Below, piece by piece: positions 789 to 35,071 of a DNA stretch of 64,000 bases. A program made the position numbers and the translations under genes. The DNA is taken from contig CAIUGM010000022.1 of NCBI GenBank assembly GCA_903898675.1, forward strand, positions 62,001 through 126,000, in the 5' to 3' direction. Origin of the DNA: an uncultured Verrucomicrobiota bacterium (GTDB taxonomy: Bacteria > Verrucomicrobiota > Verrucomicrobiia > Opitutales > Opitutaceae). The first letter of the stretch is position 1. The number at the start of each line of letters is the position of its first letter. The notes under the pieces are model-generated. The model was not told the DNA's origin. It saw nothing but the letters and a program-made list of their open reading frames with translations, and made no database searches.

Positions 789-2291
789 TTATGGCCGAGG
801 CTTAATCCCACCCGGGTTTTGGTGCGGCGGCGTCGTGTCTTTTTTTGCCCGCTCAACCGAATTTGCGCGAGTGAGTGGATTCAAGGTCGAATCAGCCTCA
901 ACCTGCTGAGCCAAGCGAGCAACCTTCGTCGCGTTTCGCGCAGCCTCTTGGCGCATGTCTTGGGACACGCGTTGGTCATTCGACACCGCCTCCCAAAATT
1001 CGCTGGCAGCCGAAGCTGCGCCCGACCAGTCGACATTAGTGTCGGCGTCGGGAGTGGGCGGAGTAAAAGTGCGGGGAACGACCTCTCCCTGCTGATTGGG
1101 GCGATAAAGCATGGGCAGCATGTCGTATATCGGAGCAAAACGGAAATGGCTCGCCGGTTCCCAGATCAACGCCGCATTGGCTGCGTGCATATCTTCGTTT
1201 CCGATCAATCCGCCGAAGCACTGGGCCCAACGGATCGCTTGGGCATCGCCGGCCTGGAGTAGCCCCCGCTTTTCCAACCGCGTCGCTGCCTGCGACCAGT
1301 TGTCCGCGCTGCGTTCCGAAGTGGCGTAGGTTGCCACGCCGAGGCCAACAACGCCAACTCGACCGAGGGTAGGTGTGCGATCGAAGCGTTCGCTCTCCAG
1401 GAAGCAGCGACCGTGGCCAAAAAACACCTCGTTAGTAGCAGCCTTTCCTCCCCTGCGATTGATCGTAGTGGCAGCCAGGTGCTCGCAAACCAGCAGGTCG
1501 GCCCAGCGCTGGCCCGCGGGGGTGTTCACTGGGGGCGAGAACTTGATGATAAGGCTTCGATGGCTGCCGGCCACCCCGCCGTCCACAGCAGCCAGGAATT
1601 TGGGTTGTTCACCGTCGGCAGAGGATCCGATAATCTCGCCTTCGTGAGCGCTTGTCATCATGTCGGGATATCGAGCACGGGCTTGATCCAGAGATAGGGA
1701 ACGCCCGGCGCGCGCGGCAGCCATCTGCTGCATCACCTCCGCTTTTGCAGTTTCCCCAACAAGCATGTTCCCGGGCAAGTCCGTGCCGGTCGTTATGCAA
1801 TACTCAAGCAGGTCGTCATCAGCCCAATCTCGCACGTCCTTGGGCGTGTTGGAACGCTCAGAGAATCTGCGTGCAATGGAACGTCCAAGGTAACCGCCAG
1901 GACGGGCAGCCGTGAGGAAAAACGGCAACCCGGGGGAGATGCTCTCACTGACACAAGGCGGCAATGGTTCGCCCTTCAAGCCACTTGCCGGGAGGAAACG
2001 ATATGCGCCATGAAGTGCGCGCAGACTGCCGAGTTCGCGCACTTGTGAATCCTGCCCAACGACAAAAATAGGCCACGCGTCACCCAGGTTTCGCACCGGG
2101 CGTCGCAAGCCGTAGCGTGTGCTTCTGGCAGCTCCAACCCGATCGATTTTGTCGCCCATTTGGCCCATTAGGCGCGACAGCGTTGGCCCGCTAATGTCCA
2201 TTACCCGCTCCAACTCCAGCCCGGTCCGCGGTCCGGCGGCCAACTCCTGCCGCAGGATGGCCAGGTTGTCAGGTTTGTGGGGAGTGCTCAT
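789..2291 (-). CDS. yjjJ: HipA-family toxin kinase, YjjJ/HipH type
   Basis: 500 residues. Residues 10-75 form a winged-helix-like DNA-binding segment, as in E. coli YjjJ (HipH), where antitoxin-like and kinase parts share one chain. The HipA kinase core follows: PGGYLGR at 131-137, the Gly-rich GEQPKF at 227-232, a putative ATP lysine at 250, ERFDR at 301-305, the catalytic loop NEDMHAAN at 365-372 (Asp367, Asn372) and the metal-binding YDMLPM at 389-394 (Asp390). All key residues are intact, so the enzyme looks active. HipA-family kinases phosphorylate translation components such as GltX; the target here is unknown. No separate hipB precedes it. It lies inside the inverted repeats of the IS1595-type element. 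The C-terminal 30 residues are polar and probably disordered. Confidence 0.88.
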   Translation of the reverse strand: MSTPHKPDNLAILRQELAAGPRTGLELERVMDISGPTLSRLMGQMGDKIDRVGAARSTRYGLRRPVRNLGDAWPIFVVGQDSQVRELGSLRALHGAYRFLPASGLKGEPLPPCVSESISPGLPFFLTAARPGGYLGRSIARRFSERSNTPKDVRDWADDDLLEYCITTGTDLPGNMLVGETAKAEVMQQMAAARAGRSLSLDQARARYPDMMTSAHEGEIIGSSADGEQPKFLAAVDGGVAGSHRSLIIKFSPPVNTPAGQRWADLLVCEHLAATTINRRGGKAATNEVFFGHGRCFLESERFDRTPTLGRVGVVGLGVATYATSERSADNWSQAATRLEKRGLLQAGDAQAIRWAQCFGGLIGNEDMHAANAALIWEPASHFRFAPIYDMLPMLYRPNQQGEVVPRTFTPPTPDADTNVDWSGAASAASEFWEAVSNDQRVSQDMRQEAARNATKVARLAQQVEADSTLNPLTRANSVERAKKDTTPPHQNPGGIKPRP

Positions 2292-2508: not shown

Positions 2509-3424
2509 TCAAAGGTTCAAGTCTGCCACCGGCACCGGCGGGTGAACCATCGCCTGCTGAAGCAACCGATAAAACAGAAGGCCGCGGCTCGTCGACGTGC
2601 GCCGGTTGAATCGGAATGCGAACTCATCGAGATAGAACTGCAGCAGGTGGTGGCCGACCGCGCCATGGTGCGTGCCGAGTAGCCAGCGCTTGAGCAGAGA
2701 CGCGACAAGGTCGACGTGTGGCAGCAGGTTCTCGCCGACCGACTGGTCGTGCCGGGATACCGTGTGATGGAATCGGCGCTTAGGCAGGCCAGCGTAACCC
2801 GACCAGCCGTCCGTCACGATGTCACTACCTGACTCCGCCAACCCCTCGACGGCATCCAGAAGGGTCGGACCAGTGGCATCGGGGATTAACTGCAGTCTGA
2901 TGCGACCCATGCGCCGGCCGCGGATCTCGGCCGCAACCATGACCAGGACCTTGCCTGGCGCGCCGCGGCCACGCTTACCGCCAGACTTCACGCCACCGAT
3001 GAACGTCTCATCAACCTCGACCTCGCCGTTCAGAAGGCTACGGCCGGGCAGGACCATGGCGCGCCTCATCCGGTGCAGCCATTCCCAAGCGGTGTGGTAG
3101 CTACCAAAGCCCATCGCGCGTTGGAGCCCCCAAGGCGCTCAATCCGTGTTTCTGTTCGAAGATGTGCCAGGCCACCTCAAGCCAGTTCTTGAGGGGATAC
3201 CGCGTGCGGTGCAAAAGAGTGCCTTCGGTGACACTTTGCTGCCAGCCGCACGCTCTGCAGTGGAAGAGATGCCTGGCGGTGAGATACGCCTTTTCCCCGC
3301 CACACTTAACGCACTTGAGTCCCTTTGGCCACCGGATCATCGCAATATAGCGAACGCAGCTCTCTTCGGTCTCGAACATTGCATCGAACTCTCTCCGATT
3401 AGCGGGATAGAGTGGCGCGGACAC
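2509..3424 (-). pseudogene. IS1595-family ISXO2-like transposase, split by a +1 frameshift
   Basis: Two overlapping minus-strand frames make one transposase. The first (3424 to 3101) carries an N-terminal zinc ribbon with Cys38, Cys41, Cys56 and Cys59 and ends early after SALGAPTRDGLW. The second (3114 to 2509, 201 residues) carries the DDE-type domain: VDETFIGG (Asp35), TDGWSGY (Asp102) and YLDEFAFRFNRR near the end. The frames join smoothly if one base is dropped from the C5 run at 3127-3131, restoring SALGLQRAMGFGS, as expected for the family. The third catalytic residue is uncertain: the usual segment before LLKRW here reads HVDLVAS. This could be a disabled gene, a frameshift-expressed gene or a sequencing error in the homopolymer. 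Confidence 0.8.
3127..3131 (-). other. Homopolymer where the transposase frame breaks
   Basis: Five C on the plus strand (five G in the transposase mRNA). With four, the zinc-ribbon frame continues directly into the DDE-domain frame; with five, translation stops 8 codons later. Confidence 0.7.
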
Positions 3425-3650: not shown

Positions 3651-6600
3651 ATGAGCGCCGCCCCCTCGCCGACCGACCTCGCGCAACTCGCCGCCCGCCT
3701 CACGGGCGAACTGCGGTTCGACGCGACCTCGCGCACCCTCTACGCCACCGACGCGTCCGAGTACCAGGAGACGCCCGTGGCGGTCGCGCTGCCGCAGACC
3801 GAGGCGGATGTGCGCGAACTCATCCGGTTCGCCCACCGCCACCGCACCGGCCTGATCCCGCGCACCGCGGGCACCTCCCTCGCCGGCCAGGTCGTCGGGT
3901 CCGGGCTGGTCGTCGACGTCGGCCGCCACCTCAACCGGATCATCGCCCTCGACCCGGTCCGCCGCCGCGCCCGGGTGCAGCCCGGGGTCGTCCGCAACGA
4001 GCTCAACCTCGCGCTCAAGCCGCACGGGCTGTTCTTCACGCCCGAGACATCCACCGCCAACCGCGCGATGATCGGCGGCATGGTCGGCAACAATTCCTGC
4101 GGCGCCAATTCCATCGTCTACGGCTCGACCCGCGAGCACCTGGTTTCCACCCGCGGTTTCCTCAGCGACGGCACCGAGGCCACGTTCGGGCCGCTCACCG
4201 CCGCGGAGTTCGCCGCCAAGTGCGCCGGACCCGACACGCTGGAGACCAAAATCTACCGCACGGTGCGCGACCTGCTCGGCGACGCCGGCAACCGCCGGCT
4301 GATCCGCGACCACTACCCGAAGCCCTCGGTCACGCGCCGGAACACCGGCTACGCGCTCGACCGGCTGATGGCGTGCGCGGTGTTCGACCCCGCGGCGCCG
4401 CAGCCGTTCAACCTCTGCCAGCTCCTCGCCGGCTCCGAGGGCACGCTGTTCTTCGGCGTCGAGTTCGAGCTCAACTGCGAACCCCTGCCCCCGCCCGGCG
4501 CGCTGCTGTGCGCGCACTTCGCCACGATCCAGGACTCGCTGCACGCCACGCTCATCGCGATGCGCCACCGGCCGTTCGGCTGCGAGCTGATCGACCGCCA
4601 CATCCTCGAGTGCACCAAGTCCAACCTCGAGCAGGCGAAGAACCGCTTCTTCGTCCAGGGCGATCCCGGCGCCGTGCTGGTGATCGAGGTCCGGCGCGAG
4701 ACCCGCGCGCAGACCGAGGCGGTCCTGCGGACCATCGAGGAAGAGCTCCGCGCCGCCGGGCTCGGCTACGCCTACCCCGTGCTCTGGGGCGACGACGCCA
4801 ACAAGGTCTGGGACCTGCGCCGCGCCGGCCAGGGGTTGATGATGAACGTGCCCGGCGACGCCAAGCCGCGCGAGGTGGTCGAGGACACGGCCGTCGCCGT
4901 CGAGGATCTGCCCGCCTACATCGCCGAGTTCGATGCGCTCATGCGCCACAAATACGGCATCAGCTCCGTCTACTACGCGCACGCCGGCGCCGGCGAACTG
5001 CACACGCGCCCGCTGTTCGACCTCAAGACCCACGAGGGCATGCGCTTCTTCCGCGGGATCGCGACCGACGTCGCCGCGCTGGTGAAGAAATACCGCGGCT
5101 CGCTCTCCGGCGAGCACGGCGACGGCCGCCTGCGCGGCGAGTTCATCAAGTTCATGGTCGGCGACGAGTGCTACGCGATGATGCGCCGGGTAAAGGAGAC
5201 GTTTGATCCGCACGGCGTGTTCAACCCCGGCAAGATCATCGACACGCCGCCGATGGACACCTCGCTGCGCCACGGGCCGGACCACTCGACGCCCGAGCAC
5301 AAGACGATCTTCAACTTCAGCGCCACCCAGGGCGTCCTCCGCGCCGCCGAGAAATGCAACGGCGTCGGCGAGTGCCGCAAGTCGCACCTGATGGGCGGCA
5401 CCATGTGCCCGAGCTTCATGGCGACCCGCAACGAGCAGGACACGACGCGGGCCCGCGCCAACATGCTGCGCCACGTGCTGACGGATTCGCGCGAGGGCCT
5501 GAACGCGTGGGACAGCGAACAGGTCAGGGACGTGATGGACCTCTGCCTCTCGTGCAAAGGCTGCAAGTCCGAGTGCCCCTCCAACGTCGACGTCGCCCGG
5601 CTCAAGGCCGAGTGGCAGCAGCACTACCACGACGCCAACGGCGTGCCGCTCCGCTCGCGCCTCGTCGCCGGCTTCACCTCGTCCATGCGCCTGGCCTCGC
5701 TCGCACCGGCGCTCTACAACTGGGCCGTCACCGCGCCCGACGTCTCGCGCTGGATCAAGCAGTTCGCCGGCTTCGCGGTGAAGCGCAGCCTGCCGACGCT
5801 GCACCGCACCACGCTCGCGGCGTGGCATGCCAAATATGCGAATCAATCCGGCCTCGGTGGCTTGCCTGGTAGGTCCGGCGCTCGTCGCCGCGCCGAATCC
5901 GCGGTACCGAAAGGCGCGCCGACAAGCGGCGGCCCTACACCGGACCCGCAAGCCAACCCCTTCCCGAACGGCCGCGTCCACCTCTTCTGCGACGAGTTCA
6001 CGAATTACAATGACACGACCGTCGGCATCAAGGCGGTGCAGCTGCTCAACCGGCTCGGCTACGAGGTCGTCATCCCGCCGCAGGTCGAGAGCGGCCGGGC
6101 GCATTTCTCGAAGGGCCTTATCCGGGACGCGCAGCGCTTCGCCATCCGGAACGTCGAGCTGCTCAAGGACGTCATCACGGCGCAGGCGCCGCTCATCGGC
6201 ATCGAGCCGTCGGCCATCCTGGGTTTTCGCGACGAGTACCCCGACCTCATGCCCGACCGGCTGATCGGTGCGGCCAAAGCCCTCGCGAAGCACGCGCTGC
6301 TGATCGACGAGTTCATCGCGCGCGAAATCGACGCCGGCCGGATCAGGCGCGAGTCGTTCACCGCCCGCCCGCAGGCGATCAAGCTGCACGGGCACTGTCA
6401 CCAGAAGGCCCTGTCGTCGGTGAACCCGACGGTCAGGATGCTCGAGCTGCCCGCCGGCCACCAGGTAACGGTCATTCCCTCCGGCTGCTGCGGCATGGCC
6501 GGCTCGTTCGGGTACGAGGAGGAGCACTTCGCCATTTCGCAGCAGATCGGCGAACTCGTGCTGTTCCCCGCCGTGCGCTCGGCCCCCGGCGACACGCTCG

Positions 6601-6698
6601 TCGCGGCCCCGGGCACGAGCTGCCGCCACCAGATCAAGGACGGCACCGGCCGGATCGCGCTGCACCCGGTGGAGATTTTGCACGGGGCTTTGCTCTGA
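3651..6698 (+). CDS. FAD-linked oxidase fused to a two-cluster Fe-S (GlpC/LldE-type) domain
   Basis: 1,015 residues. The N-terminal half (about 1-530) is an FAD-binding type 4 oxidase of the D-lactate/glycolate dehydrogenase kind: PRTAGTSLAGQ, MVGNNSCGANSIVYGS and a C-terminal SGEHGDGRLRGE. A ferredoxin-like part follows with cysteines near 569-589 and a CKGCKSECP cluster near 637-645. The C-terminal heterodisulfide-reductase-like domain has HCHQKA near 917 and SGCCGMAGSFG near 943. It probably oxidises a 2-hydroxy acid and passes electrons to the membrane; the substrate cannot be read from sequence. Residues about 730-770 are an Arg/Gly/Pro-rich stretch encoded by an imperfect palindrome (5869-5938) in frame, which looks like an insertion into the linker before the C-terminal domain. 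It is divergent from the gene at 1-508. Confidence 0.85.
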   Translation: MSAAPSPTDLAQLAARLTGELRFDATSRTLYATDASEYQETPVAVALPQTEADVRELIRFAHRHRTGLIPRTAGTSLAGQVVGSGLVVDVGRHLNRIIALDPVRRRARVQPGVVRNELNLALKPHGLFFTPETSTANRAMIGGMVGNNSCGANSIVYGSTREHLVSTRGFLSDGTEATFGPLTAAEFAAKCAGPDTLETKIYRTVRDLLGDAGNRRLIRDHYPKPSVTRRNTGYALDRLMACAVFDPAAPQPFNLCQLLAGSEGTLFFGVEFELNCEPLPPPGALLCAHFATIQDSLHATLIAMRHRPFGCELIDRHILECTKSNLEQAKNRFFVQGDPGAVLVIEVRRETRAQTEAVLRTIEEELRAAGLGYAYPVLWGDDANKVWDLRRAGQGLMMNVPGDAKPREVVEDTAVAVEDLPAYIAEFDALMRHKYGISSVYYAHAGAGELHTRPLFDLKTHEGMRFFRGIATDVAALVKKYRGSLSGEHGDGRLRGEFIKFMVGDECYAMMRRVKETFDPHGVFNPGKIIDTPPMDTSLRHGPDHSTPEHKTIFNFSATQGVLRAAEKCNGVGECRKSHLMGGTMCPSFMATRNEQDTTRARANMLRHVLTDSREGLNAWDSEQVRDVMDLCLSCKGCKSECPSNVDVARLKAEWQQHYHDANGVPLRSRLVAGFTSSMRLASLAPALYNWAVTAPDVSRWIKQFAGFAVKRSLPTLHRTTLAAWHAKYANQSGLGGLPGRSGARRRAESAVPKGAPTSGGPTPDPQANPFPNGRVHLFCDEFTNYNDTTVGIKAVQLLNRLGYEVVIPPQVESGRAHFSKGLIRDAQRFAIRNVELLKDVITAQAPLIGIEPSAILGFRDEYPDLMPDRLIGAAKALAKHALLIDEFIAREIDAGRIRRESFTARPQAIKLHGHCHQKALSSVNPTVRMLELPAGHQVTVIPSGCCGMAGSFGYEEEHFAISQQIGELVLFPAVRSAPGDTLVAAPGTSCRHQIKDGTGRIALHPVEILHGALL
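5869..5938. repeat. REP-like imperfect palindrome inside a coding sequence
   Basis: A 26-base left arm (5869-5894, beginning GTAGGTCCGGCGCTCGTC) pairs with a right arm at 5913-5938 (22 of 26 positions) around an 18-base loop. It is translated in frame within the FAD/Fe-S oxidase as a low-complexity Arg/Gly/Pro segment. The GTAGGG-type end word recurs in intergenic DNA near 35034, 35135 and 45094, suggesting a dispersed family. Confidence 0.75.
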
Positions 6699-32250: not shown

Positions 32251-35031
32251 ATGGCTAAGAAATCCACTGCTAAGAAGTCCGCGGGCAAAAAGCCCGCTTC
32301 CCATAAATCCGCCGCCAAGGCCCTCAAATGCGTCTACTCCTGGGGCGCCGGCAAAGCCGACGGCAACGGTTCGATGAAGAACCTCCTCGGCGGCAAGGGC
32401 GCCAACCTCGCTGAGATGACGCGCATCGGCCTCCCCGTGCCCCCCGGCTTCACGATCACGACCGAGGTCTGCACCTATTACTACGCCAACAAGCGCACGT
32501 ATCCCGCCTCGCTGCAGCCGCAGATGGAAGCCGGCGTGAAGAACATGGAGAAGATCATGGGCACGAAGTTCGGCGCCACCGACGGCATGCCGCTCCTCGT
32601 CGCCGTCCGCTCCGGCGCCCGCGATTCCATGCCGGGCATGATGGACACCATCCTCAACCTCGGCCTGAACGACGAGTCCGTCCTCGCCCTCGTCAAGGCC
32701 ACCAAGAACGAGCGTTTCGCCTGGGACTGCTACCGCCGCTTCATCCAGATGTACGGTGACGTCGTCATGGGCGTGCAGAAACGCGAAGGCGAGGATCACG
32801 ATCCCTTCGAGCACACCATCCACACCTACAAGCACGAGACCTACCACCGCGACATCGTCGACAGCGAGCTGACGCCCGCCGACCAGCAGGAACTCGTCAA
32901 GCGCTTCAAGGCCATCGTCAAGGACCGCACCGGAAAATCCTTCCCCAACAATCCGTGGGACCAGCTGCGGGGCGCCGCCGGCGCCGTCTTCGGGTCCTGG
33001 ATGAATGACCGCGCCAAGGTTTACCGCGCCAAGTACGGCATCCCCTCCGAGTGGGGCACCGCTGTCAACGTGCAGGCCATGGTGTTCGGCAACACCGGTG
33101 ACACCTCCGGCTCCGGGGTCGCGTTCACCCGCAACCCGGCCAACGGCACCAACGAATTCTACGGCGAGTTCCTCATCAACGCCCAAGGCGAGGATGTGGT
33201 CGCCGGCGTCCGCACCCCGGAACCCGTCCTCAAGCTGAAGGACCAGATGCCCAAGTCGTACGCCGAGCTCCTCAAGGTCCGCGCGACGCTCGAGAAGCAT
33301 TTCAAGGACGTCCAGGACATCGAGTTCACCGTGCAGGAAGGCAAGCTGTTCATGCTGCAGACCCGCAACGGCAAGCGCACCGCCATGGCCGCGCTTAAAT
33401 TCTCCATCGATATGGTGAAGGAGAAGCTCATCGACTGGCAGACCGCCATCCTCCGCAACCCCGCCGACCAGCTCGAGCAGCTGCTCGCGCCGGTGTTCGA
33501 CCTCGCCGAGGTCAAGAAGGCCCGCGTCATCGCCACCGGTCTCCCGGCCGGCCCCGGTGCCGCCACCGGCAAGATCTACTTCAACGCCGATCGCGCCGTC
33601 GCCGCCGCCGAGAAGGGCGAGAAGGTCCTCCTCGTCCGCATCGAGACCTCCCCCGAGGATCTGCGCGGCATGATCGCCGCCGAGGGCATCCTCACCGCCC
33701 GCGGCGGGGTCTCCTCGCACGCCGCCCTCGTCGCCCGCCAGATGGGCAAGGTCTGCGTCTGCGGCGCCGCCTCGCTCCAGGTCGACTACGACAAGAAGAC
33801 GGTCACGGTCGACGGCTCGACCTACAGCGAGGGCGACTTCCTGTCGATCGACGGCACCCTCGGCGTGGTGTACGCGGGCCAGATCAAGACGGCCCCGTCC
33901 GAGATCATCGCCGGCCTCATCCACGGCGACAAGGCCGCGCAGGCCACCGAGAAATTCAAGAATTACGTGCAGCTCATGAAGTGGTGCGCCGCCGCCACCA
34001 AGCTGTCGGTCCGCACCAACGCCGACACGCCCGAGCAGGCCGCGCAGGCGATCGCGTTCGGCGCCGTCGGCATCGGCCTCACCCGCACGGAGCATATGTT
34101 CTTCGAGGGCGACCGCATCGACGCCATGCGCGAGATGATCCTCGCCGGCAACCTGGCCGACCGCCAGGCCGCGCTCGCCAAGCTCCTCCCCTACCAGCGC
34201 GCCGACTTCTTCGGCATCTTCAAGGCGCTGAAGGGATTCCCGGCCACCATCCGTTTCCTCGATCCGCCCCTGCACGAGTTCCTGCCGAACTCGAAGGAGT
34301 CGCAGATGGATCTCGCCCGGAAACTGAACATTCCGGTCGAGAAGATCATGCACCGCGTCCACGAGCTGCATGAGTTCAACCCCATGCTCGGCTTCCGCGG
34401 CTGCCGGCTCGGCATCAAGTATCCCGAGATCACCGCCATGCAGGCCCGCGCCGTCTTCGAGGCGGCCGCCGACGCCAACAAGGCCGGCTTCAAGGCCAAG
34501 CCCGAGATCATGATCCCGCTCGTCGGCTTCAAGAAGGAGCTCGATCTCCAGACCGCGCTGGTCCACGAGGTCGCCAAGGCCGTCATGGCCGAGAAGAAGA
34601 CGAAGATCAGCTACTCCGTCGGCACGATGATCGAGATCCCGCGCGGGGCGCTCACCGCCGACGAGATCGCGCACACCGCCGAGTTCTTCAGCTTCGGCAC
34701 GAACGATCTCACGCAGACCTGCCTCGGCATGTCGCGCGACGACTCGGGTTCCTTCCTCGGCGCCTACCAGGAGTCCGAGATCATGAAGAAGAACCCCTTC
34801 GCCTCGATCGACCAGACCGGCGTCGGCCAGCTGATGGAGATCGCGATCAGGAAGGGCCGCGCCACCCGCCCCGGGATCAAGCTCGGCATCTGCGGCGAGC
34901 ACGGCGGCGACCCGGACTCGGTCAAGTTCTGCCACAAGCTCGGCCTCAGCTACGTCTCGTGCTCGCCTTACCGCGTGCCGGTGGCGCGTCTGGCCGCGGC
35001 GCAGGCCGCCGTCGCCGACTTGAAGAAGTAA
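32251..35031 (+). CDS. ppdK: Pyruvate, phosphate dikinase
   Basis: 926 residues. Domains in order: ATP-grasp nucleotide domain ([20 protein letters not shown]), the swivelling phospho-His domain ([20 protein letters not shown], catalytic His), and the PEP/pyruvate TIM barrel ([35 protein letters not shown] with its active-site cysteine). It interconverts pyruvate + ATP + Pi with PEP + AMP + PPi. The first 24 residues are an unusual Lys/Ala/Ser tail (KKS repeats) not part of the enzyme fold. Codon use is strongly biased and a clear intrinsic terminator follows, both consistent with high expression. Confidence 0.96.
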
Positions 35032-35071
35032 CGGTAGGGGCGGTTGCCCCAACCGCCTCGCTCCCCTCTCA

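Follow-up and report, generated by a model that had tools for sequence, protein, structure and literature searches.

A GTAG-class REP dimer in frame within the linker of a YdiJ-like oxidoreductase of an Opitutaceae bacterium, and other palindromes at the same linker in congeners

GTAG REPs located inside open reading frames were described in a 2013 study (BMC Genomics 14:522; PMC3733652), and the part of that study used here places most of them in Opitutus terrae, reports that the in-ORF inserts encode 20-30 residues, gives both uvrA genes and RNA helicases as targets, and mentions an O. terrae family whose heads read GTGG. According to its main text, different REPs were found at about the same site in one case, the recB of two Xanthomonas species. 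Flexible linkers are suggested in the same part as the reason why such inserts are tolerated, and Rickettsia RPE-4 and RPE-6 are said there to carry a CGTC tag at one end. A literature search for intragenic RAYT-linked REPs returned nothing beyond this study. Here we describe a palindrome in a 64,000-nucleotide stretch of DNA, hereafter the window, from an uncultured bacterium with a 3.5-Mb genome (G000); among its named relatives, the nearest are MAGs of the Opitutaceae, of which one bears the label Lacunisphaera.

Structure, class and copies of the palindrome

An earlier note on this DNA had reported a palindrome with 26-bp arms at 5869-5938, in frame within a 1,015-residue redox enzyme. Its position and frame were borne out: the ORF at 3651-6698 is uninterrupted across the element, and the inverted 26-nt arms, GTAGGTCCGGCGCTCGTCGCCGCGCC (5869-5894) and, in reverse complement, GTAGGGCCGCCGCTTGTCGGCGCGCC (5913-5938), are identical at 22 of 26 positions, forming an imperfect palindrome. 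Its description as one simple palindrome had to be revised, the element being composed of two REPs set back to back, each with its own hairpin:

5869-5938, no strand assigned: REP dimer (REPIN/BIME), two inverted REPs with an inner spacer at 5895-5912
5869-5894, plus strand: REP monomer a, GTAG head and hairpin CGGCG-CTCGT-CGCCG (5876-5890)
5913-5938, minus strand: REP monomer b, GTAG head and hairpin CGCCG-CTTGT-CGGCG, compensatory to monomer a

The combined arm pattern occurs twice within the window, against 0.01 expected from shuffles, and the 70-nt strand 5869-5938 folds at -22.9 kcal/mol (z -2.35), a value equalled by 2 of 200 shuffles. In an alignment of 30 distinct G000 monomers a five-pair stem was found within each 26-base REP unit, with 96.7% of cells paired and two-sided changes in 6 cells, neither of which was reached in 500 shuffles. 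A register slid by -3 also pairs 92.7% of cells, but in that register two-sided changes are absent. Pair 10-20 is G-C in 23 monomers, C-G in 4 and U-A in 1; the two window arms, both of which start with GTAG, carry opposite versions of it, so that of the four mismatches between the arms two, at positions 10 and 20, are compensatory. Based on the covarying stem in each unit and on the opposite versions of pair 10-20, the unit is a GTAG-class REP and the palindrome at 5869-5938 is a GTAG-class REP dimer (REPIN or BIME). Searches of the window against Rfam and against a phage collection gave no match.

The search for further copies proposed in the earlier note gave the predicted outcome, the palindrome recurring in its own genome, with one more copy in frame in another gene: 24 BLAST matches were obtained, self included, and a pattern search allowing at most 3 mismatches found 35 monomers, compared with 1 for the reversed-pattern control. 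Most of these copies are headed by GTAG and some by GCAG, GTCG, GTGG or GTAA, and the inverted-dimer arrangement is likewise present at C8:135072, C14:175750, C24:51190 and C20:17430 of G000. As is usual for REPs, the copies are mostly extragenic; in a codon-score test none of the 21 other copies sampled was intragenic, and positive scores were obtained for the window copy and for a copy in a helicase gene. Long ORFs running across other REPs of this genome (L198, L208, L213, L009) had no Pfam match and were judged spurious. Within the window, the usual extragenic position is exemplified by a single unit:

35034-35058, plus strand: REP-like monomer (GTAGGGGCGGTTGCCCCAACCGCCT), directly 3' of the stop of the ORF at 32251-35031

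The host enzyme and the filled and empty forms of its linker

The gene that contains the REP dimer and its linker are as follows:

3651-6698, plus strand: host gene, FAD-linked oxidase / Fe-S protein of 1,015 aa (Pfam FAD_binding_4, FAD-oxidase_C, Fer4)
5853-5951, plus strand: translated linker, residues 735-767 (LGGLPGRSGARRRAESAVPKGAPTSGGPTPDPQ), predicted to be disordered, with an insert missing from homologues

The host protein matches NCBIfam YdiJ at 571 bits, which is under the equivalog cutoff of 1350 for YdiJ, and GlpC was also matched; judged by these matches, it resembles a YdiJ-like D-2-hydroxyglutarate dehydrogenase with a GlpC-like C-terminal part. For the front part of the protein, structure prediction gives a fold that matches those of D-lactate and D-2-hydroxyglutarate dehydrogenases. 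In the AlphaFold model, residues 735-767 have pLDDT below 50 and connect a helix to the first strand of the C-terminal domain, in agreement with the earlier placement of the element in a linker before that domain. The other low-confidence loops of the model fall in conserved parts, and the enzyme has a single linker that is long, predicted to be disordered, and unconserved. Just upstream, at 2509-3424 on the minus strand, an IS1595-type transposase is split over two overlapping frames (zinc ribbon at 3101-3424, DDE domain at 2509-3114), which suggests a frameshifted IS copy; this remnant is adjoined by a gene for a HipA-like protein with a HipA_C domain (789-2291, minus strand).

Alignment with homologues supports the view, already put forward in the earlier note, that the segment was inserted. 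The window linker is about 34 residues longer than those of L041, L042 and L043, which read HAN-PPSLAYPNG or nearly so and lack the segment at exactly this place, the extra stretch being residues 736-767. The segment is also missing in L086, L088, L096, L097 and other homologues of the family and beyond (HAN-PPxLAYPNG or similar), and conservation across distant homologues, which would speak against insertion, was therefore not found. The aligned homologues contain 24 inserts of at least 8 residues, of which 21 start at residue 736 and three lie in distant rows; the Opitutaceae-like rows have no insert of this size anywhere else. By this comparison the linker segment of the host enzyme is an insertion. 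The claim that a palindrome landed in a coding region and was tolerated there is essentially right, given the empty sites and the many copies, with mobility as the step that we infer.

In most congeners something is present at the linker. In a gene tree of the host enzyme built without the linker, occupancy requires at least 7 presence/absence changes, and the filled L026 and L030 are, with full support, sisters of the empty L041 and L042, respectively. DNA identity between L026 and L041 is 92-96% in the flanking 150-bp windows, and at this coarse resolution the flank identities gave no clear sign of local recombination behind the interleaving of filled and empty alleles. A number of filled alleles have short flanks in common beyond the palindrome (KTGLGGI / QSGLGGL / KVGIGG and NPFPHG), which their empty sisters lack.

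Recurrence at the linker and in other genes

The linker DNA folds as a palindrome in at least 11 species and belongs to about six REP types:

GTAGGTCC: window
GTAGGGTC: L026, L034
GTAGGGGC: L031
GTAGGGCG: L037
GTGGA: L029, L033, L034, L035, L039
GCGAGCTTGC: L030, L032; partial in L036

Searches of the hosts' genomes showed that these inserts belong to families repeated in their own hosts; among the matches listed, the insert of L026 accounts for 48 in G012 and that of L033 for 75 in G017, figures that count matches of one copy on both strands and are thus not copy numbers. In L034 a complete GTAGG-type REPIN lies beside a GTGGA-type REP, and its sister L035 carries a GTGGA-type REPIN. The GTAG-type linker inserts use two frames, GTA-GGG (V-G) and xGT-AGG (G-R); the third, which would yield a TAG stop, was not seen among them. 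A common non-palindromic insert of 16 residues is found at the linker of L028, L040 and L027, from G002, G006 and G013, genomes in which no Y1_Tnp, RAYT or REP matches were found, and this insert may be a decayed, fossil REPIN. The linker of L038 (G023) is longer by about 30 residues and contains an inverted repeat that is weak and unlike the others, possibly of another palindrome class. Since relatives have other palindromes or none at this place, the linker looks like a reused safe landing place and not like a functional part.

A second in-frame copy in G000 lies within a DEAD-box helicase with DUF3516 (L202, L222). Its loop, between EFLP and RKLRVN, contains different palindromes in G000, L224, L226, L229 and L232, two REPINs being present in that of L226, and is short in the other twelve homologues of the alignment; on the helicase tree the five filled species need 5 changes. 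The left junction reads CCT|GTAGG in three of the helicase inserts.

Most REPIN copies of the closed genome G012 are extragenic, and 5 of the 40 sampled score inside coding frames by codon score. NCBIfam matches back the ones in the uvrA, recD2 and hrpA homologues; L276, also scored as intragenic, has no family match, and the call in L249 is doubtful because the family match starts after the REPIN. The HrpA helicase (L278:305-4075, minus strand) contains several stretches, SGGRVPPP and a repeated RPDEP...RRDDSPYQ, that are apparently REP-derived, as though this one protein had received insertions repeatedly; scanning for hairpins revealed two REP units. In the RecD2 helicase (L277:1167-3512, plus strand) the REPIN lies around residues 279-303, and farther along the protein there is another REP-like stretch (VGSSLVDGPVRRPAPTLQ). 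A T before and an A after the element are present in most G012 copies; no further common motif was recognized by eye in 40 flanks.

Of 21 genomes of the genus, 16 contain RAYT-like genes (PF01797), and several short genes among them lie between inverted REPs. The RAYT L067 of G010 is flanked by inverted REPs of the window's type and scores 94.7 bits against NCBIfam REP_Tyr_transpos (cutoff 80). No close relative of it was found in G000, nor was any REP found around L070, the only Y1_Tnp gene of that genome (345 codons open). As G000 is devoid of a close RAYT, its REPs may be left over from one that was lost.

Origin of the inserts and comparison with known systems

We consider it likely that a GTAG REPIN was inserted in frame in a permissive linker through repeated RAYT-driven insertion filtered by selection, and that the resulting stretch is translated, disordered and probably functionless. 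According to this proposal, the REPIN would have entered the flexible linker of the YdiJ-like oxidoreductase in one of the two open frames, giving rise to a predicted disordered stretch of about 23 residues, most likely without function. REP copies, being non-autonomous, would probably depend for their spread on RAYT transposases that act on their hairpins in single-stranded form. Insertions would land widely; within a gene, a copy would persist only if it keeps the reading frame and falls in one of the few loops able to accommodate 20-30 additional residues. With the turnover of REP families in every lineage, such loops would be struck again in different species, which would leave different palindromes at one linker, and after loss of RAYTs and REPs the inserts would decay. 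A selection filter acting on a roughly random inserter explains the site most simply, because only one linker of the enzyme is long, disordered and unconserved, the other low-confidence loops lying in conserved parts. The lack of a close RAYT in G000, whose only Y1_Tnp gene showed no REP at its flanks, counts against the proposal.

Simple independent insertion fails, however, to explain the flanks (GLGG, NPFPHG) shared by filled alleles, which point to a measure of inheritance, to exchange of alleles or to in-place replacement. We may hypothesize that one REPIN entered early in the ancestry of the genus and was later swapped in place, whether by REP-into-REP insertion, by gene conversion or by exchange of alleles among species; occupancy would then be inherited while the palindrome changes. 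This is quite conceivable, although on balance we lean against it: the common flanks, the mixed linker of L034 next to that of its sister L035 and the double REPIN of helicase L226 speak for it, whereas the empty alleles have one short form (NPPxLAYPNG) across lineages, other genera included, sisters differ in occupancy, and the helicase loop takes a separate change for each filled species. Recurrence might instead reflect target choice, a RAYT preferring a specific target sequence, as the CCT|GTAGG junctions and the T and A around most G012 copies could indicate; we regard this as unlikely, the T/A looking like part of the element and the flanks, inspected by eye, being otherwise devoid of a motif.

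It is very improbable that the inserts are functional, for example as an mRNA hairpin slowing ribosomes between domains or as a linker tuning the enzyme. Their position at a domain boundary and the strong hairpins in many species would fit such a role; they are nevertheless missing in sisters and outgroups, differ in sequence, length and frame from species to species, and are not palindromic in species devoid of REPs. A function of the peptide is likewise unlikely because it is absent in sisters and its sequence changes. That the palindrome arose by chance from GC-rich codons, as a high-GC genome might allow, or is an old conserved protein segment can be dismissed, being refuted by the copies in the genome and by the empty sites in homologues.

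Beyond repeated insertion under selection, a more speculative suggestion, which we put forward tentatively and rather doubt, is that a few loops in conserved proteins form a standing reservoir of REPINs in which unrelated REP families succeed one another at the same codons. If so, these loops would record the RAYT-REP history of each lineage, and linkers would evolve by a succession of elements and not by single insertions. The enzyme linker and the helicase loop, with filled and empty sisters, several REP families and frames, and lineages lacking RAYTs, constitute a natural experiment on selfish palindromes entering proteins, making it testable whether the transposase or selection chooses the loops. 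They also serve as a warning that linker sequence in such proteins can be mobile-element debris and not function.

The likeness to Rickettsia RPE drawn in the earlier note stands as an analogy, both being palindromic repeats in frame in conserved proteins. The window element is, however, a GTAG-tagged REP dimer from another phylum and is set apart by its tag from RPE-4 and RPE-6 as described; as these end in CGTC, it is an analogue and not a member of the RPEs. With the REPINs associated with RAYTs, in the part used here of their description (PLoS Genet 2011, PMC3116915), it shares the organization of two inverted REPs as a unit, dispersed copies and, in congeners, a RAYT with flanking REPs, and it differs from them in that the window copy is intragenic and its genome lacks a close RAYT. 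The closest likeness is to the GTAG REP dimers in ORFs of PMC3733652, in the part consulted, with a GTAG or GTGG head followed by a hairpin, inverted dimers, in-frame inserts of 20-30 residues, uvrA and RNA helicase targets, and a host in the Opitutaceae. The kind of element is accordingly already known; compared with the main text of that study and its single same-site case, the novelty lies in how many times one linker has been reused, being occupied here in at least 11 species, with a second loop occupied in five.
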